A DNA stretch of 64,000 nucleotides from an uncultured Erysipelotrichaceae bacterium (GTDB taxonomy: Bacteria > Bacillota_I > Bacilli_A > Erysipelotrichales > Erysipelotrichaceae). The stretch spans positions 1 through 64,000 of the forward strand of contig CALVGN010000031.1 in the NCBI GenBank assembly GCA_944327105.1, written 5' to 3'. Below, piece after piece: positions 4,422 to 64,000 of this stretch. Numbering within the stretch: the first letter of the stretch is position 1; every line of letters starts with the position of its first letter. Made by a program: the position numbers and the translations under genes. The notes beneath the pieces are model-generated. The model was not told where the DNA came from. It saw nothing but the letters and a program-made list of their open reading frames with translations, and did not search any database.

Positions 4422-6456
4422 AGTTAACGTCCTTTTCACTATGAAGTAATATGCTGTTTTGATCATCCTTTCCCAATGCATCCGGGACGATGGAAAACGT
4501 ATTGCTGATGCCATCCTGCGCATCGTCGAAGTCCAGTTTGGCGACCGATGCCAATGATGCGATGGCGCCACTATGGTCTCTTCCATGCATGGGATTGGCA
4601 CCGGGTGCAAACGCCACCCCGGCCTTTCGGCCATCCGGCGTTGCACCGGTGGCTTTCCCATAAACGACATTGCTGGTAATGGTCAATATCGACGTGGTGG
4701 GAATGGAGTGACGATAAGTATGGTTTTGACCAATATAATGCATGAATGCATGGACCACATCATGGGCGATCTGATCCACACGATCATCATCATTGCCATA
4801 TTTTGGATAGTCCCCTTCGATCGTATAATCCACGACCAACCCATTCTCATCGCGCACTGGATGCACTTTAGCATATTTGATGGCACTCAATGAATCCGCC
4901 ACTACCGACAAGCCGGCAATACCGGTGGCAAAATAGCGTTTGACATCCCGATCATGCAATGCCATTTCCAATCGTTCATAGCAATATTTGTCATGACTGT
5001 AATGGATGATATTGAGCGCATTGACGTAAACGGATGCCAACCATTTCATCATGTCATTGAATTTATCCATCACATCGTCATAATCCAATGTATCCCCTTC
5101 AACCGGACGGTATTTGGGGCCGACTTGTTTGCCGGAGACTTCATCTTTTCCGCCATTGATGGCATAAAGCAGACATTTGGCTAAGTTGGCACGGGCACCG
5201 AAAAATTGCATTTCCTTGCCCACGACCATGCTGGAGACGCAACATGCGATGGCATAATCATCCCCATGCAAAGGACGCATCAGATCATCATTTTCATATT
5301 GGATGGAACTGGTTTCGATGCTGACTTTGGCACAATAGCGTTTGAAAGCATCGGGCAGATGGATCGACCACAATACGGTCAGATTCGGCTCGGGTGCCGT
5401 CCCAAGATTATGAAGGGTATGCAAATAGCGAAAACTCATTTTAGTGACCATGGTTCGACCATCCACACCCATGCCGCCGATCGATTCGGTCACCCAAGTC
5501 GGATCACCACTGAACAAAGCATTGTATTCGGGAGTGCGGGCAAATTTGACCATGCGCAGCTTCATGATGAAATGATCGATGAATTCCTGGATCTGCGCTT
5601 CACTGTAGCGTTTTTCCTTTAAGTCACGACAGGCATAGATATCCAAAAACGTACTGGTACGTCCAAGGGACATGGCCGCACCATTTTGTTCCTTGACGGC
5701 TGCCAGATAACCAAAGTAAAGCCATTGGACGGCTTCTTTGGTATCATTGGCCGGTTTGGAAATGTCAAAACCATAGATGGTTCCCAACTCTTTTAATTCT
5801 TCCAATGCTTTGATCTGTTCGCTCAATTCTTCCCGTAAGCGCATGGTTTCTTCATCCATGACGCTCCCGGTGGAATCTTTCTGCTGCTTTTTATCTTCGA
5901 TCAACCGATCCACACCATATAGTGCGACACGTCGATAATCCCCGATGATCCTTCCTCGCCCATAAGCATCGGGCAAACCAGTAATGATATGGGATGAACG
6001 ACAGGCCCGCATTTCCGGGGTATACATGTCAAAAACACCCTGATTGTGGGTTTTACGATGGACCGTGAAGAATTCACAGATGGTCGGATCGACCGTATAA
6101 CCGTTATCCGCACAGGCTTTTTGAGCCATGCGGATGCCCCCATAGGGCTGCAAGCTGCGCTTGAACGGCTTGTCCGTCTGTACGCCGACAATGGTTTCCA
6201 ACTGGCGATCCAGATATCCGGCACCATGGCTGGTGATGGTTGAAACCACCGTGGTATCCATATCCAGCACACCGCCCGCCTTGGCTTCCTGGCGAGTCAA
6301 TTCCATCACCTGATCCCACAGTTTTTTTGTGGCATCACTGGCTTCTTCTAAGAATGATTCATCCCCGTCATAGGGGGTATAGTTGCGTTGAATAAAGTCA
6401 CGCACATCGATACGGGAGCACCAGGGTCCCTTTATAAAATCACGATAGTGATCCAT
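4405..6456 (-). CDS. pflB: Pyruvate formate-lyase core, lacking the glycyl-radical C-terminus
   Basis: The 683-residue product matches PFL from the N-terminus ([22 protein letters not shown]) through the catalytic Cys-Cys pair ([12 protein letters not shown], Cys405-406) to [12 protein letters not shown]. It then stops after a short unrelated tail (ending YGSNH). Normal PFL is about 740-760 residues and continues through the glycine loop; here that part is encoded separately at 3968-4213. PFL splits pyruvate with CoA into acetyl-CoA and formate under anaerobic conditions. The start has ribosome site GGAGGGA. Separate ribosome sites for each piece argue against a simple sequencing frameshift. 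Confidence 0.93.
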
Positions 6457-6641
6457 GTTGTCCCTCCATTTCTACAAACTGTTGCTATTACAACATAATG
6501 GTTAAACCATTGCAATTGAAATGATCACGAATTTTAGTGGTGTTTTCATTTACAATCCGATTTGGTTTTAAACATGTTGTCAATTGACGATGAGCCATGA
6601 AAAATTCAAGTTTTACTTAACCAAAACGTCCCCTGCAGCCC

Positions 6642-7128: not shown

Positions 7129-7141
7129 ATATGAAAAAAAA

Positions 7142-8060: not shown

Positions 8061-8916
8061 GATTCCTCCAAAAACGTACATGCCATTCATTGCCACAACC
8101 CAATCCCTTTGACGTGGTCAGATCACCTTTGGAAATGGCCATGGAAATGCGATTGAGTTCATTGTTATAGATCAAAATATCCCCAGTGGCGGCATCACCG
8201 AATGTTTTGACAAAAACCACCGCATCACTGAAAATCAATTCCTGTTCATACCGCACTTCCACATTGACCATTTGTCCGTATTTGAAGCCGGCGTTTAAAA
8301 ACATAGCCAATGGGATATTGGTCCACAAATTGCCAAAATTGGGATCATTGATCTCAAAAATACCGTCGATGTAATCCGCTTTGACAGAAGCGTTCAAAAT
8401 CGGCAATGTGACGATTTCATTGAGATCATAGGTTGGTCCGACCCCTTCAAAATCGATGATGCCGCTGGCTAAGCGCGCGGCGCAATAGCCAAACAGATCC
8501 CGACCATGGAAAACGGAAATCTCATCCGTACCGGCACCATGAAGGCGGTTGGTCGTTTCATCGATCTCACGGACTTCCTTAATGCCAACGGTTGCATGGA
8601 TATGGGTCAATGTCCCATTATCGGGGGTAACGATGGTATAACCATCATTGGTTTGGGCCACACACGCTTTTCTGGACGTCCCGACTCCTGGATCCACTAC
8701 AGAAACAAAAATGGTTCCTTTGGGATAAAAATGCATATATTGCATCAATCGATACGATGCGCTCCAAATATCATATTGAGGTAATTCATGGGTGGCATCC
8801 AAGATCTCGATGGTTCGATCCACGGATTTTACGACTCCATACATGGCTGCGACCGCACCTTCCTTGTACGTAAAATCCGTTTGGAAGACTAACATTGGTT
8901 TATTGGTGTCAATCAT
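8053..8916 (-). CDS. SAM hydroxide adenosyltransferase family protein (DUF62), copy 1
   Basis: A 287-residue paralogue of the next gene, with LVFQTDFTYKEGAVAAM, FVSVVDPGVGTSRKA, TPDNGTLTHI and ISVFHGRDLFGYCAARLASG. The aspartates of the N-terminal DF and DPGVG segments are the family's S-adenosylmethionine-binding positions. Ribosome site AAAGGAGAAAA precedes the ATG. It follows ecfT by 27 bases. Two tandem DUF62 genes point to duplication: the copies may have diverged or may form a hetero-oligomer (the family is trimeric). One palindrome copy (8633-8645) falls inside. Substrate specificity is not readable from sequence. Confidence 0.87.
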   Translation of the reverse strand: MIDTNKPMLVFQTDFTYKEGAVAAMYGVVKSVDRTIEILDATHELPQYDIWSASYRLMQYMHFYPKGTIFVSVVDPGVGTSRKACVAQTNDGYTIVTPDNGTLTHIHATVGIKEVREIDETTNRLHGAGTDEISVFHGRDLFGYCAARLASGIIDFEGVGPTYDLNEIVTLPILNASVKADYIDGIFEINDPNFGNLWTNIPLAMFLNAGFKYGQMVNVEVRYEQELIFSDAVVFVKTFGDAATGDILIYNNELNRISMAISKGDLTTSKGLGCGNEWHVRFWRNHE

Positions 8917-9783: not shown

Positions 9784-11510
9784 AACGGGCTCTCCTTGTG
9801 TTCGTGACGGATGAACGTATCAATAAAGGCGACTGGATCATTGATGTCGCATTTTTGGGCCAGATCATAAAGACTCGTGCGTTTTAAATATGCTTTTTCG
9901 ATCAATCGGGGATCACTGAGAACCACCGAACCGGCCGTATCGGCAATGATCTTACCATCGGTGATCACCACACAACGGTCGGTATATTCCAGCATCAAAT
10001 GCATATCATGGGTGATCAGTATGATGGTGATCCCTCGATCGTTCAATGTGGTCAAAAATTCCATGATCTCGCTGTAATGGCGATAATCCTGACCGGCTGT
10101 GGGTTCATCCAGGATCAATACGGATGGTTCAAGTACCAAAATGGAAGCAATGGTCACGCGTTTTTTCTGACCATAGCTTAATGCACAGATCGGCCAGTTG
10201 CGGTATTCGTATAATCCACAGATCTTCAAGGTATCATAGACTTTCGTTTCGATGGTATCTTTGTCATATCCACGGGAGAGCAATCCCAATGCCACTTCAT
10301 CATAGATCATGGTTTTACAGATCATTTGATTTGGATTTTGAAGCACATAGCCAATGGCATTGGCACGTTCTTTGATGGTCCAATCATTGATACATAGATC
10401 TTTATAAAAGATGGTTCCACCATCGATTTTCTCAAACCCGACGATACATTTGCTTAATGTACTTTTACCAGCACCATTTTTACCAACAATGGCCATCATC
10501 TCCCCTTGATGGATGGTAAGATCCACATGATCCAGGATCGGATGGATCCCATCATAGGAAAAGCAGAGATCGTTGATGGTCAAAACCGCTTCTTTTTCGA
10601 TGGGTTGAACCACGCTACGATTGGCTTGATACCATGATTTGACCAAATGCTGCTGTCCATTCAAATCATAGTGGGTATCATCAGAAAGATGTTTCGTTTG
10701 ACTTAAATCCACATCCGCATAGCGCATCGCCGCCACATACAATGGTTCCCGGATCCCGTTTTGTTCCAATAAATCACTGCATAACAGTTCATCCGGTGTC
10801 ATATCCGCCAAAATCGTGCCATGGTTGATCAATAGGATCCGATCCACATGGCGATGCAGCACATCCTCCAGACGGTGTTCGATGATGATCACCGTCTTAT
10901 TACGCTGTTTGGCAATGGTATCGATCAATTCGATGGCACTTTTTCCGGTCGATGGATCCAGATTGGCCAATGGTTCATCAAATAACAAAACCGGTGCATC
11001 CGCCACCATGGCCCCAGCCAGACAGGCCCTTTGTTTCTGTCCGCCGGAAAGTTCAAAGGGTGAGCGTTGCAAAAAAGAAGCCATATCAACGATCCCGGCC
11101 ACTTCCCGCACCTTGTGGTGCATCGTTTCCAGCGGCACATTATCATTTTCCAATTCAAAGGCAATATCTTCCCCAACGCTTAATCCGACGAATTGACTGT
11201 CGGCATCTTGCAATACGGTACCGACATATTGGCTGCATTTGAAAATATTGAGACTGGTCAGATCATGACCATACAGTTTGACGGATCCACCGATCTTTCC
11301 CGGATAGGCGAACGGGATCAATCCGTTAAGGCAATTGCCAAGCGTGGACTTCCCGCTGCCACTTGGACCGATGATCAATATTTTCTCCCCTTCGTAAATG
11401 GTCAGATTCACATCATGCAATGTCGGCCGCTTTTGGGAATCATATTGAAACGAAAAGTCGTTGAATTCGATGACCGCTCGTTTATTTATAGTTGTGTTCG
11501 TCATTTCCAT
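9780..11510 (-). CDS. ECF transporter ATPase with two fused ATP-binding domains
   Basis: The 576-residue protein contains two complete ABC ATPase units: Walker A GPSGSGKST (about 48-56) with signature LSGGQKQR, and Walker A GKNGAGKST (about 347) with LSYGQKKR and LILDEPTAGQD. Most ECF systems use separate EcfA and EcfA'; here they are fused, as in YkoD-type proteins. It powers the EcfT/S-component transporter at the membrane. It overlaps ecfT downstream and is separated from the S gene by a terminator. The ribosome site is weak; the ATG at 11504 is an alternative start. Confidence 0.93.
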   Translation of the reverse strand: MEMTNTTINKRAVIEFNDFSFQYDSQKRPTLHDVNLTIYEGEKILIIGPSGSGKSTLGNCLNGLIPFAYPGKIGGSVKLYGHDLTSLNIFKCSQYVGTVLQDADSQFVGLSVGEDIAFELENDNVPLETMHHKVREVAGIVDMASFLQRSPFELSGGQKQRACLAGAMVADAPVLLFDEPLANLDPSTGKSAIELIDTIAKQRNKTVIIIEHRLEDVLHRHVDRILLINHGTILADMTPDELLCSDLLEQNGIREPLYVAAMRYADVDLSQTKHLSDDTHYDLNGQQHLVKSWYQANRSVVQPIEKEAVLTINDLCFSYDGIHPILDHVDLTIHQGEMMAIVGKNGAGKSTLSKCIVGFEKIDGGTIFYKDLCINDWTIKERANAIGYVLQNPNQMICKTMIYDEVALGLLSRGYDKDTIETKVYDTLKICGLYEYRNWPICALSYGQKKRVTIASILVLEPSVLILDEPTAGQDYRHYSEIMEFLTTLNDRGITIILITHDMHLMLEYTDRCVVITDGKIIADTAGSVVLSDPRLIEKAYLKRTSLYDLAQKCDINDPVAFIDTFIRHEHKESPL

Positions 11511-12209: not shown

Positions 12210-12267
12210 ATGGTTGAACCATGCGTAAATTTCAAGTGAAAAAACGGTTGAATTATGGTTGAACCAT
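12210..12267. repeat. Two identical palindrome copies upstream of the S-component gene
   Basis: ATGGTTGAACCAT occurs at 12210-12222 and again at 12255-12267, 45 bases apart start to start, in the same orientation. Related flanking bases follow each copy (ATG.GTAAA and ATGTGAAAA). They fill the 100-base gap between the S-component start and the esterase stop and so occupy promoter or leader space. Confidence 0.9.
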
Positions 12268-15352: not shown

Positions 15353-16488
15353 AAATGGCGTGCGATCCTTTCATCCAAAGAAATATCATCGTGATAAATC
15401 GCATCGATGGTCCCACCACCCAATACCAGATCATGATCATAAAAGACGGCCTGTTGTCCGGGTGTGACGGCTTTGATGCCTTGGGGATAACTCACCGTGA
15501 CATGTTGATCATCGACTTTAGTAATGGTCACATCATTGTCATTTTGACGATATCGGAATTTCGCCTGGCAATGGATGGTGTGACCATTGGGGATATCGAT
15601 GAACCAATTGGTATTTGATACATCACACTTGGTTGAAACCAACCACTTATCATCTTTACCATTGGCGACATATAAAATATTTTTTTCCACATCTTTGCCG
15701 ACCACAAACCATGGACCATATGCCCCACCGATATCCAATCCCTTTCGCTGCCCCAATGTATAAAAGAAAACACCTTGATGCTGCTTGAGTACTTTGCCGC
15801 TGGTCACATCCACGATATCCCCTGGTTTAGCCGGTAAATAATTCTGCATGAATTGACGGAAATGCCGTTCCCCGATAAAACAGATCCCTGTGGAATCTTT
15901 CTTTGTCGCGATCGAAAGATCCAGTTTCGTTGCGATCTCGCGGATTTGAGGCTTTAAAAGATCGGCCAATGGAAATAATGCATGGGACAAGGCAAAACGG
16001 GAAATCTGCGCTAGAAAATACGTTTGGTCTTTGTTTCGATCCTTGGCTTTGTACATCCGTGAACCATCGTGGTCATGGATGACTTTGGCATAGTGACCGG
16101 TGGCCACATAATCGAATCCTTGCTCCAGACCATACTTTAAAAAATGATCGAATTTGATATATTTGTTGCACAAAATATCGGGATTGGGCGTTCTTCCTTT
16201 GGCACTTTCATGGATAAAACTGGTAAAAACTTCATCCCAGTATTCTTTGATATAATCCACCCGCTGAAGTGGTAGATCCAACTTTGCGGCAACGGCTTTG
16301 GCATCATTGAAATCTGCTTCCTGCGGACAGATTTCATCGAATGCCGAATCGTTGCCTTTGACATCATTATTGACCAATGCATCCCAATTGCGCATGAAAG
16401 CACAGGTAACATCATATCCCTGTGCTTTTAAAAGATAGGCAGCAACGGCACTGTCCACCCCACCGGATAATCCGACCAGTATCTTCAT
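15337..16488 (-). CDS. mnmA: tRNA 2-thiouridylase MnmA
   Basis: A 383-residue PP-loop enzyme: MKILVGLSGGVDSAVAAYLL at the N-terminus (ATP-binding SGGVDS), CNKYIKFDHFL with the first catalytic Cys, ATGHYAKV, and STGICFIGERHFRQF with the second catalytic Cys. It thiolates U34 of Glu, Gln and Lys tRNAs using sulphur passed from a cysteine desulphurase. The start at 16488 matches the family; upstream in-frame codons overlap spx. One palindrome variant (15575-15587) lies inside the gene. Confidence 0.96.
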   Translation of the reverse strand: MKILVGLSGGVDSAVAAYLLKAQGYDVTCAFMRNWDALVNNDVKGNDSAFDEICPQEADFNDAKAVAAKLDLPLQRVDYIKEYWDEVFTSFIHESAKGRTPNPDILCNKYIKFDHFLKYGLEQGFDYVATGHYAKVIHDHDGSRMYKAKDRNKDQTYFLAQISRFALSHALFPLADLLKPQIREIATKLDLSIATKKDSTGICFIGERHFRQFMQNYLPAKPGDIVDVTSGKVLKQHQGVFFYTLGQRKGLDIGGAYGPWFVVGKDVEKNILYVANGKDDKWLVSTKCDVSNTNWFIDIPNGHTIHCQAKFRYRQNDNDVTITKVDDQHVTVSYPQGIKAVTPGQQAVFYDHDLVLGGGTIDAIYHDDISLDERIARHLCHLN

Positions 16489-34015: not shown

Positions 34016-34016
34016 A

Positions 34017-44017: not shown

Positions 44018-44022
44018 TCGTG

Positions 44023-44836: not shown

Positions 44837-44921
44837 ATCCACCTTTTCTCCTTTTCAACCATAATGAAAGGAAGGCAGAATCCCTTCCGCCTTCCCAAAT
44901 GTAATCCATCAACAGATCGTG

Positions 44922-46627
<1,706 letters not shown>

Positions 46628-46638
<11 letters not shown>

Positions 46639-46972: not shown

Positions 46973-46974
46973 GA

Positions 46975-47280: not shown

Positions 47281-47322
47281 GTTAAATTTACCTCTTCTTT
47301 CTTTGGACTTGAGATGAGTCCA

Positions 47323-47356
47323 TTATAAATGAAAACGTTATCTTTGCGTTATAACG
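47323..47356 (-). promoter_or_regulatory. Promoter and cre site of the beta-glucoside operon
   Basis: On the minus strand -10 TATAAT is at 47323-47328. ATGAAAACGTTATCT at 47329-47343 fits the CcpA consensus WTGNAANCGNWNNCW at every position and covers the promoter spacer. The palindrome CGTTATAACG (47347-47356) lies at the -35 position, which has no good hexamer, so activation by a regulator is expected. Points to carbon catabolite repression. Confidence 0.75.
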
Positions 47357-47378
47357 AATCCAAACTTGAAAAAAATTA

Positions 47379-48206: not shown

Positions 48207-48224
48207 GGTTAAACCATCCTTTGA

Positions 48225-48929
48225 TCAATAATGCACCAGTTCAATACCATTTTGATGGATATAATCCAATACTTTGGCACTACATAACGTAGACAATTCC
48301 TTGACTCTGCCTAACGAATAGCTACTGCAATCGAACAATTCCCGATCACACCATGCCGGATGGACCATGATCTCAATATCATCATCCTTGTTTTCTTCCA
48401 GCAAATGGATCAACCATTCCGCAGAACAGTGTTCATCATCCCCAAAAAAGCCCATGACAAATTTGTAATCGCCATATCGGCGCATGGTCAAACCATATTC
48501 TTTCGCCAAACCACTGGATATTTCATAAGCTTTGGGGTTGGCATCATGTACGGAATGATGACTGTCCAGATGCGTGGGTTTATGTCCAAAGACCTCGATG
48601 TATTTTTCGATCTGAGCTTTCCATTCGACATAGATTTCGTTGTAATCGATATCATCATGCGTCCAGATGGTCTTTCTTCCCGGATAGAACATGCCATTTT
48701 CATCACTGATGGTTTGACCATGGGTCAATGACATGCCCAGTGTCAGATTCAAATGCACCCCAACACCCAATCCCGGATGTTCCAAAACCATTTGTTTCGC
48801 TTCTTCGATATAGGGAGAACTCATCAACATGGTGGTCGAACGGATCACGCCATGTTCGAAACCATCGATGATACCCTGGTTGACACCATGGGTATATCCC
48901 AAATCATCGGCATTGAATACGACTTTCAT
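48225..48929 (-). CDS. chbG: ChbG/YdjC family carbohydrate deacetylase
   Basis: A 234-residue YdjC/ChbG protein: VVFNADDLGYTHGVNQGII, STTMLMSSPYIEEA, VGVHLNLTLG and PTHLDSHHSVH, with metal-binding Asp and His residues. In E. coli ChbG deacetylates chitobiose and related N-acetyl oligosaccharides before hydrolysis. Beside a cellobiose/chitobiose-type PTS this fits the uptake of beta-linked N-acetylglucosamine sugars. Ribosome site AAAGGTAG. Confidence 0.92.
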   Translation of the reverse strand: MKVVFNADDLGYTHGVNQGIIDGFEHGVIRSTTMLMSSPYIEEAKQMVLEHPGLGVGVHLNLTLGMSLTHGQTISDENGMFYPGRKTIWTHDDIDYNEIYVEWKAQIEKYIEVFGHKPTHLDSHHSVHDANPKAYEISSGLAKEYGLTMRRYGDYKFVMGFFGDDEHCSAEWLIHLLEENKDDDIEIMVHPAWCDRELFDCSSYSLGRVKELSTLCSAKVLDYIHQNGIELVHY

Positions 48930-49006: not shown

Positions 49007-50662
49007 TTAAGCGTTTGCCCCCTGTTCCTGAGCGACCAAGGTCTTATCATACGTTTTGATAAACGGATAGACGATGGGGATATCCACAAGGAACAGAATG
49101 ATCCACAACACGATCGTCATGACGTCACCGGTCGCCAGGAAAGCCTGTAACGGACCTGGAACGGTAAATGGCAATGTGATGTAGAAGCGACCCACGATAT
49201 TCATGCTGGCGCAGATGTAATAAGCGGAGCAGTTGATCATGGAGCACAGGATCAATGGGATGTAAGTATAAACGTTCAACACGGTCGGTAAACCGAAAAT
49301 GGAGGGTTCATTGATGTTGAACAAGGATGGAACGATGGCAACTTTGGCAACGGAGCGGGCCTGGTTGCTCTTGCACCACAAGAAGATGACCAACAGGATG
49401 ACGTTGTATGTGATCCAGTTACCGAATACCGAGTTCATGGCACCGGCATAGATAAACGGTAAAGCTTCACCGGCCACATAGGCTTCAGCATTGGCCGCCA
49501 AGGCAGCTGTGGTGATCGGACTGGTGACCACAGAAAGCATGTTGGCACCATGGATACCAAAGAACCAGAAGGTGGTCATCAAAAGGTTGATCAACAAGAC
49601 GCTCGGTAAGGAACCGGTCGCACTCATCAATGGCTGGAAGATGGTATAAACCAGTTTAGATAGACCAGCACCGGTCAAGCTGGTGCACAATACATCCAAT
49701 AAAATGAACAGCACAACGTTGACCACACCCGGGATCAATACGTTAAACGGAGCGGCAACATTGGGTGGCACGGAAGCCGGTAATTTGATCACGATGTTGT
49801 GTTTGATGAAGAAGTGGTTGACTTCCACGACAAGCAAACCGATCACCATGGCCGTAAACATGTAACCTGCACCCAGATTACCCATGATGATCGAACCATT
49901 GGCTAGATCAACAGATCCGGATACACACAGATAAACCAGCAACGCAGTGATCATGTTGTTGATTCCATTCATCTTGTAGGTTGAGGCCAATTGATAAGCA
50001 ACACCACAGACGACATAGATGGAAATGATACCGATGGTCAGCTGATACGGCAGCATCAGGATACTGTTGTATTGAGCAGCGAAACTTTGCCATGCCAATA
50101 AGAAGGCATAGAAGAAGTTGCTCGGTTCAGTGATCGTGGCCGGGATCGGCGGCACGGCGATCAAACAGGCAAAACCACCGATGATGGTGATTGGGATCAT
50201 GACGGTCAAGCCATCACGCACCGCAGCCAAATGACGTTGGTTGGAAATCTTCATTCCCACCGGAACGATGTACTTTTCCATGACTGCGGAAATCTTATCC
50301 ATGACGGATACTTTCTGAGACATTTGTCTTTCCCCTTTCTTGGATTGTGAAACTCCATAGAGTTCCAATACCGTATCCACAATGATCTGTGGATCAAGTG
50401 CAGCAAAATCGTGGCCTTCGATCTGCTTGAGCTTGATCCCTTCGTATTGGGAGACGATGGTTTCGATATGCTGGAATTCATATCGAATCTGTGGTGCAAC
50501 CAGCACGACATCGTATTTACCGATCACATTTGGAATTTCGGTATAACTGCGGGCATCGATGGTCCAACCATCCTTTTCGCACAATTGGGCGACTCGATGC
50601 GCCAGCAGCGATGTCGACGCACCGGCGGCACAGACCAGAAGGACGTTTATGTCTTGAATCAT
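49007..50662 (-). CDS. PTS cellobiose-family IIB-IIC fusion protein
   Basis: A 551-residue fusion. The first about 100 residues form a IIB domain (LLVCAAGASTSLLAHRV, with the phospho-Cys), followed by a short linker and a IIC permease with about ten membrane segments. Permease motifs include VRDGLTVMIPITIIGGF, FWFFGIHGANMLS and PSLFNINEPSIFGLP (the conserved sugar-site NEP). In lactose/cellobiose systems IIB and IIC are usually separate; an internal ribosome site (AAGGGGAAAG) before ATG 50323 (MSQKVSV) may still yield free IIC. Start 50662 with AAGGAGGAACGC. Confidence 0.93.
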   Translation of the reverse strand: MIQDINVLLVCAAGASTSLLAHRVAQLCEKDGWTIDARSYTEIPNVIGKYDVVLVAPQIRYEFQHIETIVSQYEGIKLKQIEGHDFAALDPQIIVDTVLELYGVSQSKKGERQMSQKVSVMDKISAVMEKYIVPVGMKISNQRHLAAVRDGLTVMIPITIIGGFACLIAVPPIPATITEPSNFFYAFLLAWQSFAAQYNSILMLPYQLTIGIISIYVVCGVAYQLASTYKMNGINNMITALLVYLCVSGSVDLANGSIIMGNLGAGYMFTAMVIGLLVVEVNHFFIKHNIVIKLPASVPPNVAAPFNVLIPGVVNVVLFILLDVLCTSLTGAGLSKLVYTIFQPLMSATGSLPSVLLINLLMTTFWFFGIHGANMLSVVTSPITTAALAANAEAYVAGEALPFIYAGAMNSVFGNWITYNVILLVIFLWCKSNQARSVAKVAIVPSLFNINEPSIFGLPTVLNVYTYIPLILCSMINCSAYYICASMNIVGRFYITLPFTVPGPLQAFLATGDVMTIVLWIILFLVDIPIVYPFIKTYDKTLVAQEQGANA

Positions 50663-50782: not shown

Positions 50783-52714
50783 ATGACGTCGATGAAAGAA
50801 AATATCCAGCGTCACATGTTGAATATCCTTCTGGACACCAAAACGCCGGTCAACAGCAAGACCATGGCGCAAACATTGGGCATCTCCGAAAAAACCACAT
50901 TAAAGTATCTCAATTTTTTGAAACAGGATGTGGCGGATTATGGTGCGACCATCGACATCAAACAAGGTCAAGGTTCGATATTGATCATCCAGGATGCTTC
51001 TCTTTTTGCACGCTATCTGAATTCCAGCAAAGACAATGACTACCTCAATGATCCCAAACAGCGCAACATCTATATTTTAAGCCGATTGTTGCTGGAAAGC
51101 GATTATCTCAATGTATACGATCTTTCCGATGAACTGGCGATCTCCCCTTCGCTTTTGAGAAGTTGCTTGAAAACCGTATCCGGGATATTGGCGCAATACG
51201 ATATCGATCTGATCCATTCGCATTTGTATGGATATAAAGTCAAAGGCGATGAAAATGACGTGCGCCGATGTTTGATGAAAGAATGTCGCACTCAGGTGGA
51301 TATCCATCAATTATTGAACCAGGAACATCTCAATGTGGATGTCAAAGTGATCGAATCGATCGTATCAAAGACGCTGAAGGATTATGATATCGCCATCACC
51401 AATGATGGCATGCGTTCTTTGACATTGCATATCATGTTATGCATCTATCGATGTGAAACAGATAATGTCATCAAGGATGCCGAGACCATCGAACCTTATT
51501 TAAGAAGCAGTACAGAATATTTTGTCATCAATGCCATCAACCGCAAGATCAAGGCCACTTTTGGCATCGACTTGCCGGTCAATGAATTGATGTATCTGAC
51601 GATGCATTTGGCCGGAAAACAGCGCAAGATGCGCCATGAACGCATCATGGTGAAAGTGAGCAATGATGCGTTGGTGTTTTACAATAAGTTATTGCGCAAT
51701 ATCTACAAATACAGTCATATCGATCTATTTGATGATGATGAATTGCGCACCAGTCTGCTCAATCATATCGTGCCGTTTTTGACGCGTTATGAAAACAACA
51801 ACCAGATTGAAAAAAGTGAGTTGATGGATATACGAAACCAATACCCGATGGCGTATGATCTAGCCAGCAGTGGTTTGTACCATCTCACCATTGACAAAGG
51901 ACAGGCGGCCGTATCGGAAGCAGAGACGGGTTATTTTGCCTTGCATATCGCGTTGGCATTGGAAAAACGAAAACTCAATGCCGCACCGATCAATGTGGCC
52001 GTGATCGGCATCGAAGAGGAAATCAACAACTTGTATTCATTGATGACGTACAAGCTCAATGAAAACTTTGAAGGTGCGATCAATACCATCTCATTCTTTC
52101 CGGTAGAAACCGTGACGCAAGAACAGGTGCAAAACTGTCGATTGATCTTAAATACGACTTCGATGATCTTACCATTTAACCATGTGGCAAAGATCTCCCC
52201 CTATCTGAGCATGGCGGATATCGATGCGATCCGTCAGTGCATCCGTTTATTTCAGACCAACGACCATTTCGATGATGTGTTCATCCCGGTATTGTTCGAT
52301 CATCTTGAAGGCCATGATCCCCAATCGTTATTGGAGGATTTTGTGGCAAAACTAAGTGATCATGTGGCATTACCACATGATTTTGTGGATGAATTGATGA
52401 AGCGGGAAGTATTCATGAGTACGTCGTATGATACGCAAATCGCGGTCCCGCATCCTCTGGAAAATCCCAACCATCTCAATTTTATTGCCGTGGGACGAAC
52501 GGATGAGCCGATCAAGTGGGGTGAAAACCACGTCCGATTGATTTTTTTGACCTGTATATACGGCAATCATGAGTTCAGTGTCAATTTCTTCAAGAAAATC
52601 GCGATCCTTTCTCAAAACCGCAAGATCGTATCCAAGGTATTGGATCATTACAATGATTTTGACGGATTCATCAAAGCGATGCATTCCATTGAAACCTGGG
52701 CGGATAATGGTTGA
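50783..52714 (+). CDS. PRD-domain transcriptional regulator of the PTS (LicR/MtlR type)
   Basis: A 643-residue multidomain regulator. Helix-turn-helix domains at the N-terminus (TMAQTLGISEKTTLKYLNFL, LSDELAISPSLLRSCLK), two PRD domains (MRSLTLHIMLCIYR, NELMYLTMHLAGKQRKM), a IIB-like segment, and a C-terminal fructose-type IIA domain (STSYDTQIAVPHPLENPN with its His). Phosphorylation of PRD and IIA histidines by the PTS switches DNA binding. It is divergent from the IIBC gene. Start 50783 or 50792; the ribosome site is poor. Confidence 0.92.
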   Translation: MTSMKENIQRHMLNILLDTKTPVNSKTMAQTLGISEKTTLKYLNFLKQDVADYGATIDIKQGQGSILIIQDASLFARYLNSSKDNDYLNDPKQRNIYILSRLLLESDYLNVYDLSDELAISPSLLRSCLKTVSGILAQYDIDLIHSHLYGYKVKGDENDVRRCLMKECRTQVDIHQLLNQEHLNVDVKVIESIVSKTLKDYDIAITNDGMRSLTLHIMLCIYRCETDNVIKDAETIEPYLRSSTEYFVINAINRKIKATFGIDLPVNELMYLTMHLAGKQRKMRHERIMVKVSNDALVFYNKLLRNIYKYSHIDLFDDDELRTSLLNHIVPFLTRYENNNQIEKSELMDIRNQYPMAYDLASSGLYHLTIDKGQAAVSEAETGYFALHIALALEKRKLNAAPINVAVIGIEEEINNLYSLMTYKLNENFEGAINTISFFPVETVTQEQVQNCRLILNTTSMILPFNHVAKISPYLSMADIDAIRQCIRLFQTNDHFDDVFIPVLFDHLEGHDPQSLLEDFVAKLSDHVALPHDFVDELMKREVFMSTSYDTQIAVPHPLENPNHLNFIAVGRTDEPIKWGENHVRLIFLTCIYGNHEFSVNFFKKIAILSQNRKIVSKVLDHYNDFDGFIKAMHSIETWADNG

Positions 52715-52762: not shown

Positions 52763-52778
52763 TATGATGGTCGAACCA

Positions 52779-53699
52779 TTATAGGACACTGCTGGCCAGC
52801 ATGGTCATGACCACCAATGAGATCAGACACAAAATAGTTGTCATGCACACCTGTTCCACGGCACTGTGATAATCCTGATTATACTGTTGGGCAAAGATGG
52901 CGACGTTGGAACCGACTGGACAGGCAGCGGCAATGAAGATCGCCAATTTGATGGTGGTGGAACCAAATGGTAAGACCATGAATACCGCTAATGTGACCAG
53001 TGGAATGATGATCAAGCGAACCAGTGAAACTTTATAAATACTCAACTTGGCAAACATGGCTTTCAAATCACTTTGCGCCAAATAGACACCCGATACCATC
53101 ATCGCCAACGGGGTATTGACCCCGGCACATAATTCAAACACATCATCCACGATGGATGGCACCGGGATCTGGGTGATAAAAACCACCAAACCGATCAAAA
53201 CAGCGATGACAATGGGGTTGGTGATGATCTTCTTAGGGCTCATGACTGAGCGATCACCGGTCATGATGAATACACCATACGTCCATTGCAATACATTGAT
53301 CAATACGATCATCATGGAAATATACAATACGGCACTTTCACCCAATGTGGCAGAAATCAACGGGATACCGATGAATCCGGCATTAGAGAAAGCTGCGGAA
53401 AAATTGGCTACACCATCGCGACGAGCGAAAAACAAATACGAAACAACAACGGATAGCACCATGGCAACCAATGCGATCAATGTCGAGTGGATCAACGCAT
53501 CGACATTTTGGGCATTGAATTCGATCATGAAATTGCGGATGATCACAATGGGTATGACCAAATACAGCAATATCTTTCCGATATCCTTGCTGCCTTGATC
53601 CGAAATGAATTTGATTTTATAAAAGATGAATCCGACCAGCATCAATACGAACATGACGATGATCTGGTTGAACAATAATGTAATGAAATTTCCATCCAT
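52779..53699 (-). CDS. AEC (auxin efflux carrier) family transporter
   Basis: A 306-residue protein with about ten membrane segments in two halves: FNQIIVMFVLMLVGFIFYKIKFIS, FSAAFSNAGFIGIPLISATLGE and AACPVGSNVAIFAQQYNQD, the paired broken-helix motifs of AEC carriers, which move malate, malonate or other organic acids. It stands alone. The palindrome at 52767-52779 abuts its stop codon and another (52967) lies inside. Confidence 0.92.
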   Translation of the reverse strand: MDGNFITLLFNQIIVMFVLMLVGFIFYKIKFISDQGSKDIGKILLYLVIPIVIIRNFMIEFNAQNVDALIHSTLIALVAMVLSVVVSYLFFARRDGVANFSAAFSNAGFIGIPLISATLGESAVLYISMMIVLINVLQWTYGVFIMTGDRSVMSPKKIITNPIVIAVLIGLVVFITQIPVPSIVDDVFELCAGVNTPLAMMVSGVYLAQSDLKAMFAKLSIYKVSLVRLIIIPLVTLAVFMVLPFGSTTIKLAIFIAAACPVGSNVAIFAQQYNQDYHSAVEQVCMTTILCLISLVVMTMLASSVL

Positions 53700-53781
53700 A
53701 TTACTAATCCCCTTATCACGACCCAGGATAAAAGATGGTCAAACCATCATGTACCACTGGTTTTCCCTATCAAAACGGAAA

Positions 53782-55648: not shown

Positions 55649-55748
55649 ATTACTCTCCCTACTCTACTTTCAATTCAGTTGATCAAATGCGCATAACGAT
55701 GGTCAAACCATATGCATTGGTGATTGCAATGTGAGCAATGGATATGGT

Positions 55749-56743: not shown

Positions 56744-56826
56744 ATGGTTTGACCATGGTCAAACCATGATTGAATAATGTAAGGGCGTTCATTGTCAAAA
56801 ACCATGGAAAGTCATGGTCAAACCAT
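56744..56826. repeat. Palindrome cluster upstream of pfkA, with a 24-bp perfect dyad
   Basis: Two exact copies share two bases (56744-56756 and 56755-56767) and together form a perfect 24-base palindrome; a third copy lies at 56814-56826. They fill the 130-base gap between dnaI and pfkA, where the pfkA promoter must lie. Confidence 0.92.
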
Positions 56827-58997: not shown

Positions 58998-59551
58998 GCC
59001 ATCACCTTCCTTTCCAATTCTTCCATGGTGCCATTGTTTTCAATGATGGTATCACCATGGCTGATCTTATACGCATCATCATATTGATAAGCCATGCGTT
59101 GTTGATAGTGTTTTGGATCCATGTTGCGACTTTTACCGATGCGTTGCAATACCCTATTTTTCGTGGTGGTCACCACCAGGATATGATCGAACAGATCTTC
59201 CATTTTCGCTTCGAATAACAGTGGGACTTCGGCAATGAACGGATCATGGATCTTGCCCATATGGGCAAGATCTTTGCGCATTTGGCCATAGAGGATATCG
59301 GTGACTTGATTTTTTAATACGGGTTGATTGAAGAAAAGTGTGGAAAAACGGGAAATATCCAATTGTCCCTTTTCATCATACACATTGTGATCTTTAAGCA
59401 AATGATGCAATCGATCATGGACAGGACTGGTTGGACCATAGTAGCTTTTGGCTAGACCATCGGCATCAACCACGTCAAACCCATGATTTCTCAATATCAT
59501 TGCAACTGTACTTTTCCCTGCTCCTAACGTACCGGTAATGGCGATGCGCAT
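58967..59551 (-). CDS. coaE: Dephospho-CoA kinase
   Basis: A 194-residue P-loop kinase: MRIAITGTLGAGKSTVAMIL (Walker A), DVVDADGLAKSYY (substrate site), and FIAEVPLLFEAKMEDLFDHILVV. It completes CoA synthesis. Lies between mutM and dnaB in the standard Bacillota order. Confidence 0.96.
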   Translation of the reverse strand: MRIAITGTLGAGKSTVAMILRNHGFDVVDADGLAKSYYGPTSPVHDRLHHLLKDHNVYDEKGQLDISRFSTLFFNQPVLKNQVTDILYGQMRKDLAHMGKIHDPFIAEVPLLFEAKMEDLFDHILVVTTTKNRVLQRIGKSRNMDPKHYQQRMAYQYDDAYKISHGDTIIENNGTMEELERKVMAWIKPLTDPD

Positions 59552-59570: not shown

Positions 59571-60392
59571 TTAATGAATCATTCTTTGACAATGCGGGCA
59601 ATAAAACGCACTGCGCCCGTTGATCATCATCCGCTGTATGGTCGAACCACACGCACTACACGGTTTCCCTTCTTTTCCATAAGTATGCGTGAAAAGATCA
59701 AATTGTCCGTTGTATTCACTCTGCGGTAGTGGATTGTAATGGTTGATCCCACCCGCTTCGATGGCATACGCCACGACTTGGTGGAATGCATGGTAAAGAT
59801 AGTCAAAATCCTGATCCGTTAGTTTTGCACAGATGCTTGCCGGATGGATCTTGGCTTGAAACAGGATCTCATCCGCCCAGATATTGCCTAGCCCACAGAT
59901 CAGATGCTGATCCATCAACGTGGGTTTGATCTTTCGACGGATCGGTTTGAACGTTTCAATGAAGAAGCGGGTATTGATGGAAGGATCCAAAACATCCGGT
60001 CCCAATCCATTTAGAAAAGATAACGGTTCGTTTTTAGAATAGGCGGCCAGATAGCCGAATTTGCGTTGATCGACGTAGCGGATCTGTTCCCCATTTTCTA
60101 AATCGAGCAACACACGGGTAAACGATGGTCGAACCATATTCACCTTCTGGATATAGAACTGACCGCTCATGCGTAAATGGAACATCAATGTACCATGATC
60201 ACTACGGATCAAACCATACTTGCCATAACGGTCCACTCCGTTGATGGTCGAACCAATGACATTTTGCTTGAACGTTTCGATCTCTCCTTCGATACTTCTT
60301 GGTTCCAATACTGTCACATTGACGATGGTATGACCATTCAACCGTTTGGCCAATGGTCTTCTTAACGCTTCGATTTCAGCAAATTCCGGCAT
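59571..60392 (-). CDS. mutM: Formamidopyrimidine-DNA glycosylase
   Basis: A 273-residue Fpg/Nei glycosylase: N-terminal MPEFAEIEALRRPLAKRL with the catalytic Pro after Met and Glu, LMFHLRMSGQF, LICGLGNIWADEILFQAKIHP (H2TH region), and a C-terminal zinc finger PCSACGSTIQR...YCPHCQR. It removes oxidised purines and nicks DNA. The N-terminus is slightly altered (FAEIEALRR for LPEVETVRR). Overlaps the polA stop (TAATG). Two exact palindromes (60125, 60325). Confidence 0.96.
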   Translation of the reverse strand: MPEFAEIEALRRPLAKRLNGHTIVNVTVLEPRSIEGEIETFKQNVIGSTINGVDRYGKYGLIRSDHGTLMFHLRMSGQFYIQKVNMVRPSFTRVLLDLENGEQIRYVDQRKFGYLAAYSKNEPLSFLNGLGPDVLDPSINTRFFIETFKPIRRKIKPTLMDQHLICGLGNIWADEILFQAKIHPASICAKLTDQDFDYLYHAFHQVVAYAIEAGGINHYNPLPQSEYNGQFDLFTHTYGKEGKPCSACGSTIQRMMINGRSAFYCPHCQRMIH

Positions 60393-63025
60393 TATTTCGC
60401 CTCATACCAGTCATTTCCGACTTTCACTTCCGCTTTTAACGGCACTTTCATGATCAATGCATTTTCCATGGTTTCTTCCACGAGTTTACACATCAATTCC
60501 ACTTCATCCTTCGGAACATCAAAAATCAATTCATCATGGACCTGAAGGATCATTTTACTTTTGACATTGGCTTTGCGCATGGCCCTTTCCACTTCCAGCA
60601 TGGCGATCTTGATCAAATCGGCAGCGGAACCTTGAATGGGTGCATTCATGGCAGCGCGTTTTCCGAATTCTCGCATCGTATAACTTTTATCATGGATTTC
60701 CGGGATCTCCCGACGACGGTTGGTGATCGTGGTCACATAACCGTTTTCTTGACAGAATTTGACGATCTGATCCATATAGTCCTTGATCCCCGGATACGTG
60801 GTCAGATAGGTTTGAATAAACGAACGGGCTTCCATGGGAGTAATGTTGAGTTGATTGGCCAGACCAAAGTCACTGATGCCATAAACGATACCGAAGTTGA
60901 CGGCTTTGGCTTTACGACGATGTTCACTGTCCACTTGATCCTTGGTCAAACCAAAGACATCCATGGCGGTTTTGGTATGGATATCCATCCCTTCCTTGAA
61001 TGCATCGATCAAGCGGGTCTCATTGGCCCGATCTGCCAGAACCCTTAATTCGATTTGCGAATAATCGCAACTTAGTAGCACACATCCTTCACTGGGTAAA
61101 AAGGCTTTACGGATCAACCGTCCTTCTTCATCGCGCACGGAAATATTCTGCAAATTGGGATCTGAAGAACTCAATCGACCGGTTTGGGTCGCGGCTTGGT
61201 TGAATGTGGTATGGATGCGACCATCGGCTCCGATGTATTTATCCAAACCTGTGGCATAGGTGGAATATAGTTTTCCGATTTTTCGATAACGCAGCAGATA
61301 ATCAATGATCGGATGCACGCCGACCAATCCTTCCAATACTTCGGCACTGGTCGACCGTTTTTTTCCAGTGGGCAAACCAAGCTCATCAAACAATACCGTC
61401 GCCAATTGCTTGGGTGAATTGAGATTGAACGGATGATCCACCGTTTCATAGATTTTTTCAGTCAGATCATTGATCTGCATGTTCAAATCATCGGCGATCT
61501 TTGCCAAGATATCGGCTTTGCAGACGATCCCTTGCTGTTCCATGGAACATAACACCAGTAACAGTGGCATTTCCACTTCACGGTATAACGGCAGACATTC
61601 GATGGTTTCGACCATCGGATAACAGGTGTGATATAAAGTAAGGATATCTTGGGTTTCATTGACAGTGTATTCCATGGCAGCAAGGCGGTCATGGAGTTTG
61701 GGTTTATCGAATTTACCATAGATGGATTCTCTGGTTTTACCATTGATCAGATCAAAGCGTTCACTGGTTTTGACAAAACTGGTACAGGTCGAATCCGCTA
61801 AGGAAGCTAAAATCATCACGTCTTCACCGATCCCGTCGATGGTCAAACCATGGGTGGCCAGTGTCAGGATGACATGTTTGGCATCATAAAACAGTTTATG
61901 ATTGTCTGCTTTCAACCATTGGATGAATGATCCATCCTGGATGGCATCACTGTAATCGATGTATTCGGTGGTTGAACCATCGGATAATGCAAAGCCATAG
62001 ATCTCATTTTGAGCGTATAATCCACAATCTGCATCCAACGACAATGCAATATTATCTTTTAACAAGGATGCACTGATCCGTTCGACTTTTGTCCACTCAA
62101 CCGTGGTTTTGACCATGGATGCGTTAGAGGATGAATCAGCAAACTGGCTTTGCACTTTCTCTGCCAGCTTGCGCATTTCATATTTTGTAAAAAACTCGAT
62201 CAACTTTTGATCATTGATGGCGATGATACAATCACTTAAAGCAAACGGAAATTCGACATCCCGTTTGACGGTCGTGATTTGTTTTTGCAACAGGACACTG
62301 TCTTTGTTTTCGATGAATTTTTCACGTTGGGATTTGCCCAATTCATCCAAATGCGCATAGATGCCTTCCAAATCGCCATATTGGGCCAACAATTTTTGCG
62401 CGCTTTTCGGTCCGATCCCCTTGATGCCGGGCAGATTATCACTGGCATCACCATTGATGGCTTTATAGTCACACACCTGATCGGCTCGAAAGCCATGATA
62501 CTCAAGCATGGTATCGGGGGTATTGTCCTGGATGTCTTTCAACCCTTTTTTGATCAGATGTACGGTGACCGTTGGTGAAACCAACTGCAACAAGTCCTTA
62601 TCGGAAGTGAATACATCCACATGCATCCCTTGACTGAATGCATCATCGGCCAAAGAAGCCACGATATCGTCGGCTTCGATGTTATCGGCTTCATAATGGC
62701 GGATACCAAACGCATCCAACAGTTCTCTGGATATAGGAAACTGTTCGACCAACTCCGGCGGTGTCGGTTTTCTGCCCCCTTTGTAATCGGGAAACAGATC
62801 ATGGCGGAACGTATGCTTTCCAGCATCATAAGCCACGGCCATGTAATCGGGGTTGTAAGTGGTGATGATCCCGATCAACATATTGGCCAGATTCATGATG
62901 GCATTGGTGGGAACACCAAAGGATGTCTGCAAAACAGGCATGTCGGGAATATAAGTGGCATAAAAAGCACGATAGAGGATGGAATTGCCATCGAGGATGA
63001 TCAATGTTGGATTATTGGCTGGCAT
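60392..63025 (-). CDS. polA: DNA polymerase I
   Basis: A 877-residue enzyme with three parts: 5' nuclease (LIILDGNSILYRAFYA, FTSDKDLLQLV, NLPGIKGIGPKSAQKLL), a central exonuclease-like domain whose acidic motif is weak (LSLDADCGLYAQNE) and therefore probably inactive, and the polymerase (DPNLQNISVRDEEGRLIR, LLSCDYSQIELRVLA, VNFGIVYGISDFGLANQL, LQVHDELIFDVP). Fills repair gaps and removes primers. Start 63025: GGAGG lies 8 bases upstream. Overlaps the metal-binding lipoprotein by 14 bases. Confidence 0.96.
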   Translation of the reverse strand: MPANNPTLIILDGNSILYRAFYATYIPDMPVLQTSFGVPTNAIMNLANMLIGIITTYNPDYMAVAYDAGKHTFRHDLFPDYKGGRKPTPPELVEQFPISRELLDAFGIRHYEADNIEADDIVASLADDAFSQGMHVDVFTSDKDLLQLVSPTVTVHLIKKGLKDIQDNTPDTMLEYHGFRADQVCDYKAINGDASDNLPGIKGIGPKSAQKLLAQYGDLEGIYAHLDELGKSQREKFIENKDSVLLQKQITTVKRDVEFPFALSDCIIAINDQKLIEFFTKYEMRKLAEKVQSQFADSSSNASMVKTTVEWTKVERISASLLKDNIALSLDADCGLYAQNEIYGFALSDGSTTEYIDYSDAIQDGSFIQWLKADNHKLFYDAKHVILTLATHGLTIDGIGEDVMILASLADSTCTSFVKTSERFDLINGKTRESIYGKFDKPKLHDRLAAMEYTVNETQDILTLYHTCYPMVETIECLPLYREVEMPLLLVLCSMEQQGIVCKADILAKIADDLNMQINDLTEKIYETVDHPFNLNSPKQLATVLFDELGLPTGKKRSTSAEVLEGLVGVHPIIDYLLRYRKIGKLYSTYATGLDKYIGADGRIHTTFNQAATQTGRLSSSDPNLQNISVRDEEGRLIRKAFLPSEGCVLLSCDYSQIELRVLADRANETRLIDAFKEGMDIHTKTAMDVFGLTKDQVDSEHRRKAKAVNFGIVYGISDFGLANQLNITPMEARSFIQTYLTTYPGIKDYMDQIVKFCQENGYVTTITNRRREIPEIHDKSYTMREFGKRAAMNAPIQGSAADLIKIAMLEVERAMRKANVKSKMILQVHDELIFDVPKDEVELMCKLVEETMENALIMKVPLKAEVKVGNDWYEAK

Positions 63026-64000
63026 CACCATTACCTCCCCGTGGTTCGGCCATGCTTTGCAATACGGATAGATTGTCATACATCATGGTCAGATAATCGA
63101 TGGCACTTTCATTCTGTCCACTGGTTTGAGCTGAACAATTGGTCAGATCCACCCGGGTCAGATCCAACTCTTCACTTAATGTGTTGAATAATTCGATCAT
63201 TTCATCACTCATATTGGGTTCATAAACGATGTAGTGGACTTGATCTTCGATGATCCGATTTTTGATCACATCCAATTGCGTGTCCGTTGGCATCACGCCA
63301 AATTTGCTCAATACCACCGGATAGATCTCAAAGCCATAGGCTTTCTGCCAGTTGCCGAATGCATTGGTCAGCGTGACCATGCGGATCTGCTGATTTTGAT
63401 ACCGTAACGTGGACGATAATGCCTGATATTGGGCATCCAGACGGACCAGTTCGGTTTTCAGGTTTTCAAAATTGGATTTGAATGTGGTTTCGTATTCGGG
63501 ATAAAGGGAACATAACTGGGTGGTGATATCATCCGCCATGGATAGCATGCTGATGGGGTTCAACCACAGATTCAAATCATTTTCCGTCATATCGATATGA
63601 TCAAAGGAAGGATCATCATAGAACGGTCCTTCACTATATCCCAATAACTGGCCATCATCGAATATGGGGGTATAGCGGATGTTTTTGTATATGGCATTCA
63701 AGCCGGATAGATCGTAGTTGACGATCGACATATCCCTTAATGTGGAGCGGATCAGGGTATAGTAGGGTTCGATATTGCCGACATGGAAAAAGACACCGGA
63801 ATCTTCCAGGATGGTTTGCCAGTTATCTTTTAATCGGGCGTATTGGATGGTCGAACCATCTTCTTGAATGGATTGCGCATTGACGGTATCGCCGGCAATG
63901 GTTTGGATCAGATAACCGATCGGATAGACCGTATAAGCGATCTGGGATTTCTGAACGGTACAGCCACTTGGAATCATTAGTGTAAATATGGTCAAAACCA
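63012..64000 (-). CDS. Metal ABC transporter substrate-binding lipoprotein (ZnuA/TroA-like), 5' end outside window
   Basis: The reading frame runs off the right edge; the visible part starts inside a signal peptide (TIFTLMIPSGC, with lipobox Cys). The mature part has TVYPIGYLIQTIAGD, HVGNIEPYY, DLNLWLNPISMLSMADDI, and VTLTNAFGNWQKAYGFEIYPVV, the pattern of cluster A-I zinc/manganese-binding proteins. Several usual metal His residues are changed (LTNAFGNW for THxAFxY-like, NLWLNP for HxWLDP), so metal binding may be weak. Upstream of polA, an unusual pairing, and coupled by overlap. Confidence 0.8.
   Translation of the reverse strand, partial: VLTIFTLMIPSGCTVQKSQIAYTVYPIGYLIQTIAGDTVNAQSIQEDGSTIQYARLKDNWQTILEDSGVFFHVGNIEPYYTLIRSTLRDMSIVNYDLSGLNAIYKNIRYTPIFDDGQLLGYSEGPFYDDPSFDHIDMTENDLNLWLNPISMLSMADDITTQLCSLYPEYETTFKSNFENLKTELVRLDAQYQALSSTLRYQNQQIRMVTLTNAFGNWQKAYGFEIYPVVLSKFGVMPTDTQLDVIKNRIIEDQVHYIVYEPNMSDEMIELFNTLSEELDLTRVDLTNCSAQTSGQNESAIDYLTMMYDNLSVLQSMAEPRGGNGDASQ

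Follow-up and report, generated by a model that had tools for sequence, protein, structure and literature searches.

The window analysed here is a 64-kb stretch (positions 1 to 64,000) of contig CALVGN010000031.1 in the draft genome of an uncultured Erysipelotrichaceae bacterium (hereafter, G000; 1,614,838 bases in 59 contigs, 97.36% complete). The RNase J encoded in the window shares 62-65% identity with its counterparts in Holdemania, Ileibacterium, a Solobacterium-labelled assembly and further Erysipelotrichaceae (best 7 of 80 loci), in keeping with an organism in or near that family. Scattered over the window is a 13-bp gapped palindrome, ATGGTNNNACCAT, whose core we propose to be the operator of a FadR-type GntR repressor. 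It occurs 50 times, against 0.25 in dinucleotide shuffles. By our own gene calls, 37 copies lie in genes, 11 between genes and 2 across a gene edge, with predicted gaps making up 8.1% of the window. The original prediction, made from the letters of the window alone, had recognised both the iteration and the excess in gaps, but its numbers needed correction: it counted 45 copies within 5450-63859 (the copy at 3060 lies outside this range), placed about 29% of them in gaps (22-26% here), and reported a YNR centre in 33 of 45 copies rather than 33 of 50.

The iteration extends over the whole draft, which holds 836 copies of ATGGTNNNACCAT and a single copy of the same pattern reversed, used as a control. 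In a sample of 563,725 bases (the window plus 34 further G000 stretches), 290 copies were observed, far above the means of 4.6, 7.3 and 12.0 simulated with Markov models of order 2, 4 and 5; counts near a fourth- or fifth-order expectation, named with the original prediction as its refutation, were thus not seen. The eight-base core TGGTNNNACCA numbered 772 in the same sample, compared with simulated means of 32.7, 37.1 and 55.5, which extrapolates to about 2,200 core sites in the whole genome. At least one core site was present in 34 of these 35 stretches, so the enrichment does not stem from one gene family. Two samples agreed on core density, with 1.46 per kb in one and 1.37 in the other; the figures were 2.05 and 1.99 for gaps, and 1.33 and 1.28 for genes. 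Regular spacing was rejected, as distances between sites follow a roughly exponential distribution that has a long tail and more distances of 100-200 bp than expected (126 vs 96.7); site numbers varied between stretches beyond Poisson (chi-square 62.3, 19 degrees of freedom).

Related genomes were counted as well, a check that had been suggested with the original prediction. Among 630 genomes searched besides G000 (family 272, class sample 395), none of them a second genome of its genus, the highest count of ATGGTNNNACCAT was 23 (G423, class sample) and the family maximum was 16 (G022). The iteration is thus confined to one genome among those searched. A scan of 27 stretches from relatives (7 public loci and 20 genome stretches) revealed no gapped palindrome with similar enrichment, the best reaching 7.4-fold with 6 copies; no candidate reached 6 copies in seven of these stretches, mostly short and one reading as N.

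The enriched unit is the core TGGT-N3-ACCA, with a preferred outer A..T (416 sites vs 21.3 expected in a first sample of 304,658 bases, used for a spacer scan). A four-base spacer (N4) was also enriched (178 vs 21.3), mostly within genes, and the other spacers from 0 to 19 gave 7 to 38 sites each. In the predicted gaps of a 543,725-base sample, from which the motif-poor island L092 was left out, N3 sites numbered 131 against 3.1 expected (42-fold) and N4 sites 22 against 3.1, with N2 (3) and N5 (2) at chance level. One-mismatch N3 sites in these gaps numbered 54 against 40.6 expected, including TGAT (18 vs 7.7). This nearly sole enrichment of the perfect two-half site fits all-or-none recognition by a dimer. 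Near misses were common in genes (TGAT 185 vs 49.6, TGGC 73 vs 25.7, and likewise for the N4 form), as expected if they are imperfect sites left by coding constraint. The intergenic halves had an outer A in 74% and an inner T in 62% or C in 26%, giving ATGGTYNRACCAT, and their centre pairs (TT 50, CT 46 and CC 7 of 131) were close to independence (50.4, 42.2 and 8.9).

The proposal that a dimer recognises double-stranded DNA is upheld by the loss of most gap enrichment with one mismatch and by the bases beside the centre, which were complementary less often than expected (103 of 415 sites vs 140.4) and make a hairpin or other RNA element unlikely. Pairing excesses in the seven flanking columns were small and irregular, the largest being 200 vs 172.0 (column 1, N3) and 58 vs 43.6 (column 2, N4), and an Rfam scan of the window at gathering scores detected tRNA only. 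A dispersed repeat was rejected because flank preferences are weak, the strongest being for C at the third position beyond the core (43% of halves). A terminator role was rejected too: convergent gaps, 2,932 bases in all, held 3 sites and were thus less dense than tandem or divergent ones. The words CAATGC, TCAATG and CAATAC were about twofold enriched in the G000 sample (order-2 Markov).

The main coding frame of the core is xxT-GGT-NNN-ACC-Axx (264 of 328 sites in genes). Within 443 predicted genes, the N3 core occurred 610 times, compared with 107.8 after synonymous-codon shuffling (standard deviation 8.7, maximum 133 in 100 shuffles) and 15.4 after shuffling of codon order. Gly-x-Thr tripeptides in these genes number 1053 against 614.3 expected, with other Gly/Thr spacings at 568-667. 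In relatives, Gly-x-Thr (475 vs 408.9) was no higher than their other spacings; the 27 vs 17.9 in L092 are too few to judge. A cause at the protein level, i.e., a taste for Gly-x-Thr, was rejected, as gaps are denser than genes and synonymous shuffles retain so few of the sites. The Gly and Thr of motif codons matched a relative's residue in 53 of 181 cases (69.0 expected from per-gene identity), and an alignment gap fell within 7 of 79 sites (first comparison). Genes at least 50% identical to a relative carried 0.44 sites per kb (8 sites, 20 genes), and the other classes 1.35-1.54. Substitution was thus the main route by which sites entered genes, at places that the protein can spare, and the copies even alter proteins, as the Gly-x-Thr excess shows. 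If gaps are close to mutation-selection balance, a perfect site enriched 42-fold would have a scaled advantage of about ln 42 = 3.7; a drive linked to repair would yield identical figures.

The core has a counterpart among described operators, contrary to what was first supposed. The published PdhR box is (A)ATTGGTnnnACCAAT(T), in which GGTnnnACC is the part required (PMC7660256), and the LldR motif is TGGTNNNACCA itself (PMC9600882), both proteins being of the GntR/FadR type. Most FadR-subfamily sites consist of TKGT/ACMA boxes 3 nt apart, a pattern that TGGT-N3-ACCA fits, and FadR-type spacers are 3 or 2, spacer 4 belonging to the HutC subfamily (PMC4494728). The same source associates Arg28 and Gly59 of the helix-turn-helix (HTH) domain with a G at the K position and equates position 27 with FadR Glu-34; positions 28 and 59 are therefore FadR residues 35 and 66. 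In our literature search, the core string turned up in PdhR papers and a Caproicibacterium paper, and no genome-wide iteration of a FadR-type operator was found.

Five GntR-HTH proteins were found in G000, and only one, of 250 residues, has an FCD domain (GntR 46.4 bits, cut-off 27; FCD 27.2 bits, cut-off 24.3). Its gene (hereafter, C27 gntR; G000:C27:11405-12154) lies outside the window, follows infB-rbfA (frames read by eye) and is in motif-bearing DNA with a GC content of 0.444. The other four comprise two short proteins, which read as YtrA-like and as lying beside ABC-transporter genes, and two with UTRA domains. Relatives in PDB match the C27 HTH (best E 5.3e-07; FadR E 0.004). The C27 gntR promoter contains GTGGTCTGACCAACTGGTCAGACCAC, a nearly perfect double operator with core sites at -34 and -21.

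A search of 195 family genomes (E up to 0.001) gave matches in 124 genomes including G000. The five closest homologues (G183, G171, G164, G119 and G020) matched over most of their length with 29-35% identity and E values of 5e-23 or better; weaker matches were mostly to the HTH, some being longer (e.g., G038, 28%, E 3.4e-10). Relative to the start codon, all five had a core site at -24 to -30, with a further one at -131 to -159 in four of them, so that, with C27 gntR, the regulator's own promoter carried a core site in six of six cases. All nine core sites in the homologue loci (17,395 bases) fell within 200 bases upstream of the start, seven with a YNR centre; the background in other relatives' DNA was 17 core sites in 452,839 bases. 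None of nine weaker, mostly HTH-only loci (L138-L146) had an upstream core site, the two sites found there being 3' of the match. Four of the five homologues are divergent from a FAD-oxidoreductase-like gene, which is not so in G000 (frames read by eye). In our own alignment, Arg (of SER/PAR/PQR) and the wing Gly are placed at FadR 35 and 66 in all six proteins. The promoters of this group of FadR-type regulators thus contain TGGTNNNACCA, to which the iterated core is identical in both letters and spacing.

The best explanation, to which we assign a probability of roughly 0.55, is that a GntR/FadR repressor became a chromosome-wide, nucleoid-like binder. The iterated unit would be the operator of the FadR-subfamily repressor (GntR winged helix plus FCD) encoded beside infB-rbfA, whose dimer would read one TGGT-containing half per arm of ATGGT-YNR-ACCAT. 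The C27 GntR is the likely occupant of the iterated sites. It would be a local, autoregulated repressor in relatives and a chromosome-wide binder in the G000 lineage, where the sampled stretches average about 1.4 core sites per kb. Point mutation would have created the sites, and selection or a drive would retain them where genes tolerate it; the most likely job would be nucleoid organisation, ordinary repression being retained at a few operator arrays. Both the architectural role and a sufficient abundance of the protein are what we infer, and a nucleoid protein, one of the recognisers first suggested, is favoured in that sense. The fuller account, in which a metabolite-sensing GntR/FadR repressor was converted in one lineage to a sequence-specific nucleoid protein, with its operator placed by point mutation at about two thousand core positions (an extrapolated figure) and Gly-x-Thr raised by about 70% in 443 genes, is more tentative and less likely than not.

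Several observations weigh against a FadR-type binder. The five homologue genomes have the protein and its site and only 2-8 copies of ATGGTNNNACCAT each, i.e., no iteration, hence the protein is not sufficient. An outer A is present in 1 of 22 halves before the six gntR genes, compared with the 74% of intergenic iterated halves; this could mean a shift of flank preference in the lineage, tuning of the iterated copies, or the involvement of a second protein. N4 is enriched 8-fold, although FadR-type sites have spacer 3 or 2. The recognition-helix Arg that is the main base contact in FadR (PMC4494728) is replaced by Lys in G000 and four homologues (VSK/ISK, in our alignment). The body of C27 gntR has one N4 site and no N3 site, and an inner A rather than Y occurs in two of the nine homologue sites (both in L136). 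Lastly, over all sites of the first sample the centre pairs were not independent (C/T 159 vs 114.4, C/C 11 vs 34.1), which may reflect codons.

It is unlikely, but not negligibly so, that another dimeric DNA-binding protein (nucleoid, segregation, SMC-loading or nucleoid-occlusion) occupies the sites and that the likeness to a GntR operator is coincidental or historic. In its favour, the outer bases differ between iterated copies and gntR promoters, and the 5+3+5 layout resembles the 13-bp matS of MatP. However, the eight core bases and their spacing match the sites before the FadR-type gene and its five closest homologues, and no other candidate turned up, no search having been aimed at one.

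A somewhat lower likelihood is given to a mechanism like that of HIP1 in cyanobacteria. The motif would then be modified by an orphan DNA methyltransferase, and its sites created and kept either by methyl-directed mismatch repair or because methylation is selected for. The density (836 in 1.61 Mb) is similar to that of alternate HIP sites in cyanobacteria, at about 500-2500 per Mb (PMC4390886), and 45 of the 66 one-mismatch copies in the window differ at the first or last base, as for HIP1 (PMC4390886). The TGAT excess in genes and gaps (C-to-T in ACCA) is what deamination of 5-methylcytosine would give; cytosine deamination may be a source of this near miss, the excess of which is mostly coding but present in gaps too. 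The coexistence of N3 and N4 spacers speaks against this mechanism, as does the location of the methyltransferases. Profile searches with five Pfam families (PF01555, PF00145, PF02384, PF02086 and PF07669) detected three DNA-methyltransferase loci in G000, all in stretches without core sites, and they thus look younger than the motif. A methylase as the recogniser is accordingly not supported, as far as these five families show. A further match, in C48, resembles a tRNA methylase (read from sequence).

Within the 563,725 bases, eleven stretches of at least 4 kb lacked N3 and N4 sites. AT-rich sequence (GC 0.34-0.38) makes up several of these, and others, of ordinary GC (0.45-0.47), may be conserved genes or recent arrivals. 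The largest, in C25, encodes DISARM (DrmA, DrmD and DrmMII) together with a Type III system, the methylase frame of which is broken into two parts in the draft; L092 (G000:C25:1-20000) contains 1 core site only. A Type I locus occupies the desert in C3 (first 6.4 kb, GC 0.34), and a Type II-like methylase is found in the site-free stretch of C52 (20-27.5 kb, GC 0.32-0.36). The motif may also mark resident versus recently acquired DNA in this genome. The Type I locus at L083:504-4657 includes a short second HsdS-like frame and recombinase-like frames and reads as a phase-variable specificity locus. GATC was over-represented 1.9-fold (order-1 Markov; window and own stretches, 284,658 bases), although no D12-type methylase matched in G000; pair counts imply that GATC is also dense in relative L003.

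Improbable, too, is that the iterated copies have no architectural role and act as decoys, setting the threshold of the GntR repressor by titration. This shares the binder evidence set out above, and the copies' flanks are indeed unlike the promoter sites; yet hundreds of substitutions, including amino-acid changes, would have been made where a promoter change would suffice. It is very improbable that the motif is a DNA uptake sequence of the kind found in Haemophilus and Neisseria, spreading through biased uptake and recombination: the copy number, tolerance in genes, reshaped tripeptides and absence from several islands do resemble uptake sequences, but there is little one-mismatch halo in gaps, uptake sequences are not known to be palindromes, and ComEC (PF03772), the only competence gene searched, had no match in the 97%-complete draft, with the same search positive in 10 of 14 control genomes, so uptake machinery is not supported as a recogniser.

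The copies of ATGGTNNNACCAT in the window and three further features are listed in Table 1. The array of three core sites is about 180 bp upstream of two minus-strand genes, 43839-43129 (Sigma70_r2 match below cut-off) and 43132-42323 (RsgI_M), and is a possible true regulatory target. The seven sites in the RsgI_M/PepSY gene are apparently a tandem repeat and count as one origin. A region rich in core sites (19713-23567) encodes sigma-factor-like, ABC-transporter and VTT-domain proteins and two proteins without Pfam match.

Table 1 Copies of the 13-bp palindrome and other core-site features in the window.
Feature	Position	Strand	Basis or remark
ATGGTNNNACCAT copy	3060..3072	.	pattern search
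ATGGTNNNACCAT copy	5450..5462	.	pattern search
ATGGTNNNACCAT copy	6498..6510	.	pattern search
ATGGTNNNACCAT copy	8633..8645	.	pattern search
ATGGTNNNACCAT copy	10411..10423	.	pattern search
ATGGTNNNACCAT copy	12210..12222	.	pattern search
ATGGTNNNACCAT copy	12255..12267	.	pattern search
ATGGTNNNACCAT copy	15575..15587	.	pattern search
ATGGTNNNACCAT copy	19798..19810	.	pattern search
ATGGTNNNACCAT copy	20044..20056	.	pattern search
ATGGTNNNACCAT copy	20152..20164	.	pattern search
ATGGTNNNACCAT copy	20371..20383	.	pattern search
ATGGTNNNACCAT copy	20564..20576	.	pattern search
ATGGTNNNACCAT copy	20954..20966	.	pattern search
ATGGTNNNACCAT copy	21329..21341	.	pattern search
ATGGTNNNACCAT copy	21455..21467	.	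pattern search
ATGGTNNNACCAT copy	21602..21614	.	pattern search
ATGGTNNNACCAT copy	25211..25223	.	pattern search
ATGGTNNNACCAT copy	25370..25382	.	pattern search
ATGGTNNNACCAT copy	25472..25484	.	pattern search
ATGGTNNNACCAT copy	25789..25801	.	pattern search
ATGGTNNNACCAT copy	30948..30960	.	pattern search
ATGGTNNNACCAT copy	32123..32135	.	pattern search
ATGGTNNNACCAT copy	32793..32805	.	pattern search
ATGGTNNNACCAT copy	32850..32862	.	pattern search
ATGGTNNNACCAT copy	32895..32907	.	pattern search
ATGGTNNNACCAT copy	33882..33894	.	pattern search
ATGGTNNNACCAT copy	35246..35258	.	pattern search
ATGGTNNNACCAT copy	35464..35476	.	pattern search
ATGGTNNNACCAT copy	38144..38156	.	pattern search
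ATGGTNNNACCAT copy	39215..39227	.	pattern search
ATGGTNNNACCAT copy	41984..41996	.	pattern search
ATGGTNNNACCAT copy	42681..42693	.	pattern search
ATGGTNNNACCAT copy	48205..48217	.	pattern search
ATGGTNNNACCAT copy	48484..48496	.	pattern search
ATGGTNNNACCAT copy	48709..48721	.	pattern search
ATGGTNNNACCAT copy	50559..50571	.	pattern search
ATGGTNNNACCAT copy	50940..50952	.	pattern search
ATGGTNNNACCAT copy	52767..52779	.	pattern search
ATGGTNNNACCAT copy	52967..52979	.	pattern search
ATGGTNNNACCAT copy	53735..53747	.	pattern search
ATGGTNNNACCAT copy	55699..55711	.	pattern search
ATGGTNNNACCAT copy; 2-base overlap with the copy at 56755..56767	56744..56756	.	pattern search
ATGGTNNNACCAT copy	56755..56767	.	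pattern search
ATGGTNNNACCAT copy	56814..56826	.	pattern search
ATGGTNNNACCAT copy	59046..59058	.	pattern search
ATGGTNNNACCAT copy	60125..60137	.	pattern search
ATGGTNNNACCAT copy	60325..60337	.	pattern search
ATGGTNNNACCAT copy	61839..61851	.	pattern search
ATGGTNNNACCAT copy	63847..63859	.	pattern search
Array of three core sites; first two 13 bp apart, TGGTCNGACCA centres	44022..44068	.	resembles double site before gntR
Seven core sites at 45-bp intervals within RsgI_M/PepSY gene, flanks alike	41096..41378	.	tandem repeat
Core-site-free stretch of about 4 kb; phosphotransferase system and 6-phospho-beta-glucosidase genes, GC 0.46	44070..48102	.	

Highly iterated motifs such as HIP1 have no agreed explanation, and a published model ties HIP1-type motifs to DNA methylation (PMC4390886). 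G000 would add an independent case, specific to one lineage, whose motif is assignable to a small, testable protein with a name. If the repressor reading is true, it shows a route from ordinary transcription factor to DNA-binding protein on the scale of a chromosome, and the 42-fold gap enrichment, mostly lost by one mismatch, is a natural measure of site retention.

Among known systems, the uptake sequences of Haemophilus and Neisseria also have hundreds of copies in genes and gaps and reshape peptides; unlike them, the G000 motif is palindromic, with no ComEC found and little near-miss halo in gaps. In enterobacteria, MatP binds matS as a dimer, and matS, with 5-bp arms about a 3-bp centre, is a 13-bp palindrome like the G000 motif, but its sequence and protein family differ. 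Whereas the 13-bp matS has 23 copies in one 800-kb domain (PMC3330122), the G000 motif is found genome-wide. HIP1 and its alternates resemble the G000 motif as short palindromes at about one per 1-2 kb, the alternates being limited to single species; unlike these, the G000 motif is gapped, occurs in Bacillota and matches a repressor operator, with methyltransferases found only in motif-free stretches. As all cyanobacterial genomes with highly over-represented sequences are reported to have a putative methyltransferase for them (PMC4390886), G000 may depart from this rule, as far as a draft and five Pfam families can tell. The PdhR and LldR boxes share the core TGGTNNNACCA, the spacer of 3 and a site in the regulator's own promoter; PdhR has 35 targets by genomic SELEX in E. 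coli (PMC7660256), compared with about 1.4 core sites per kb across genes and gaps in G000.

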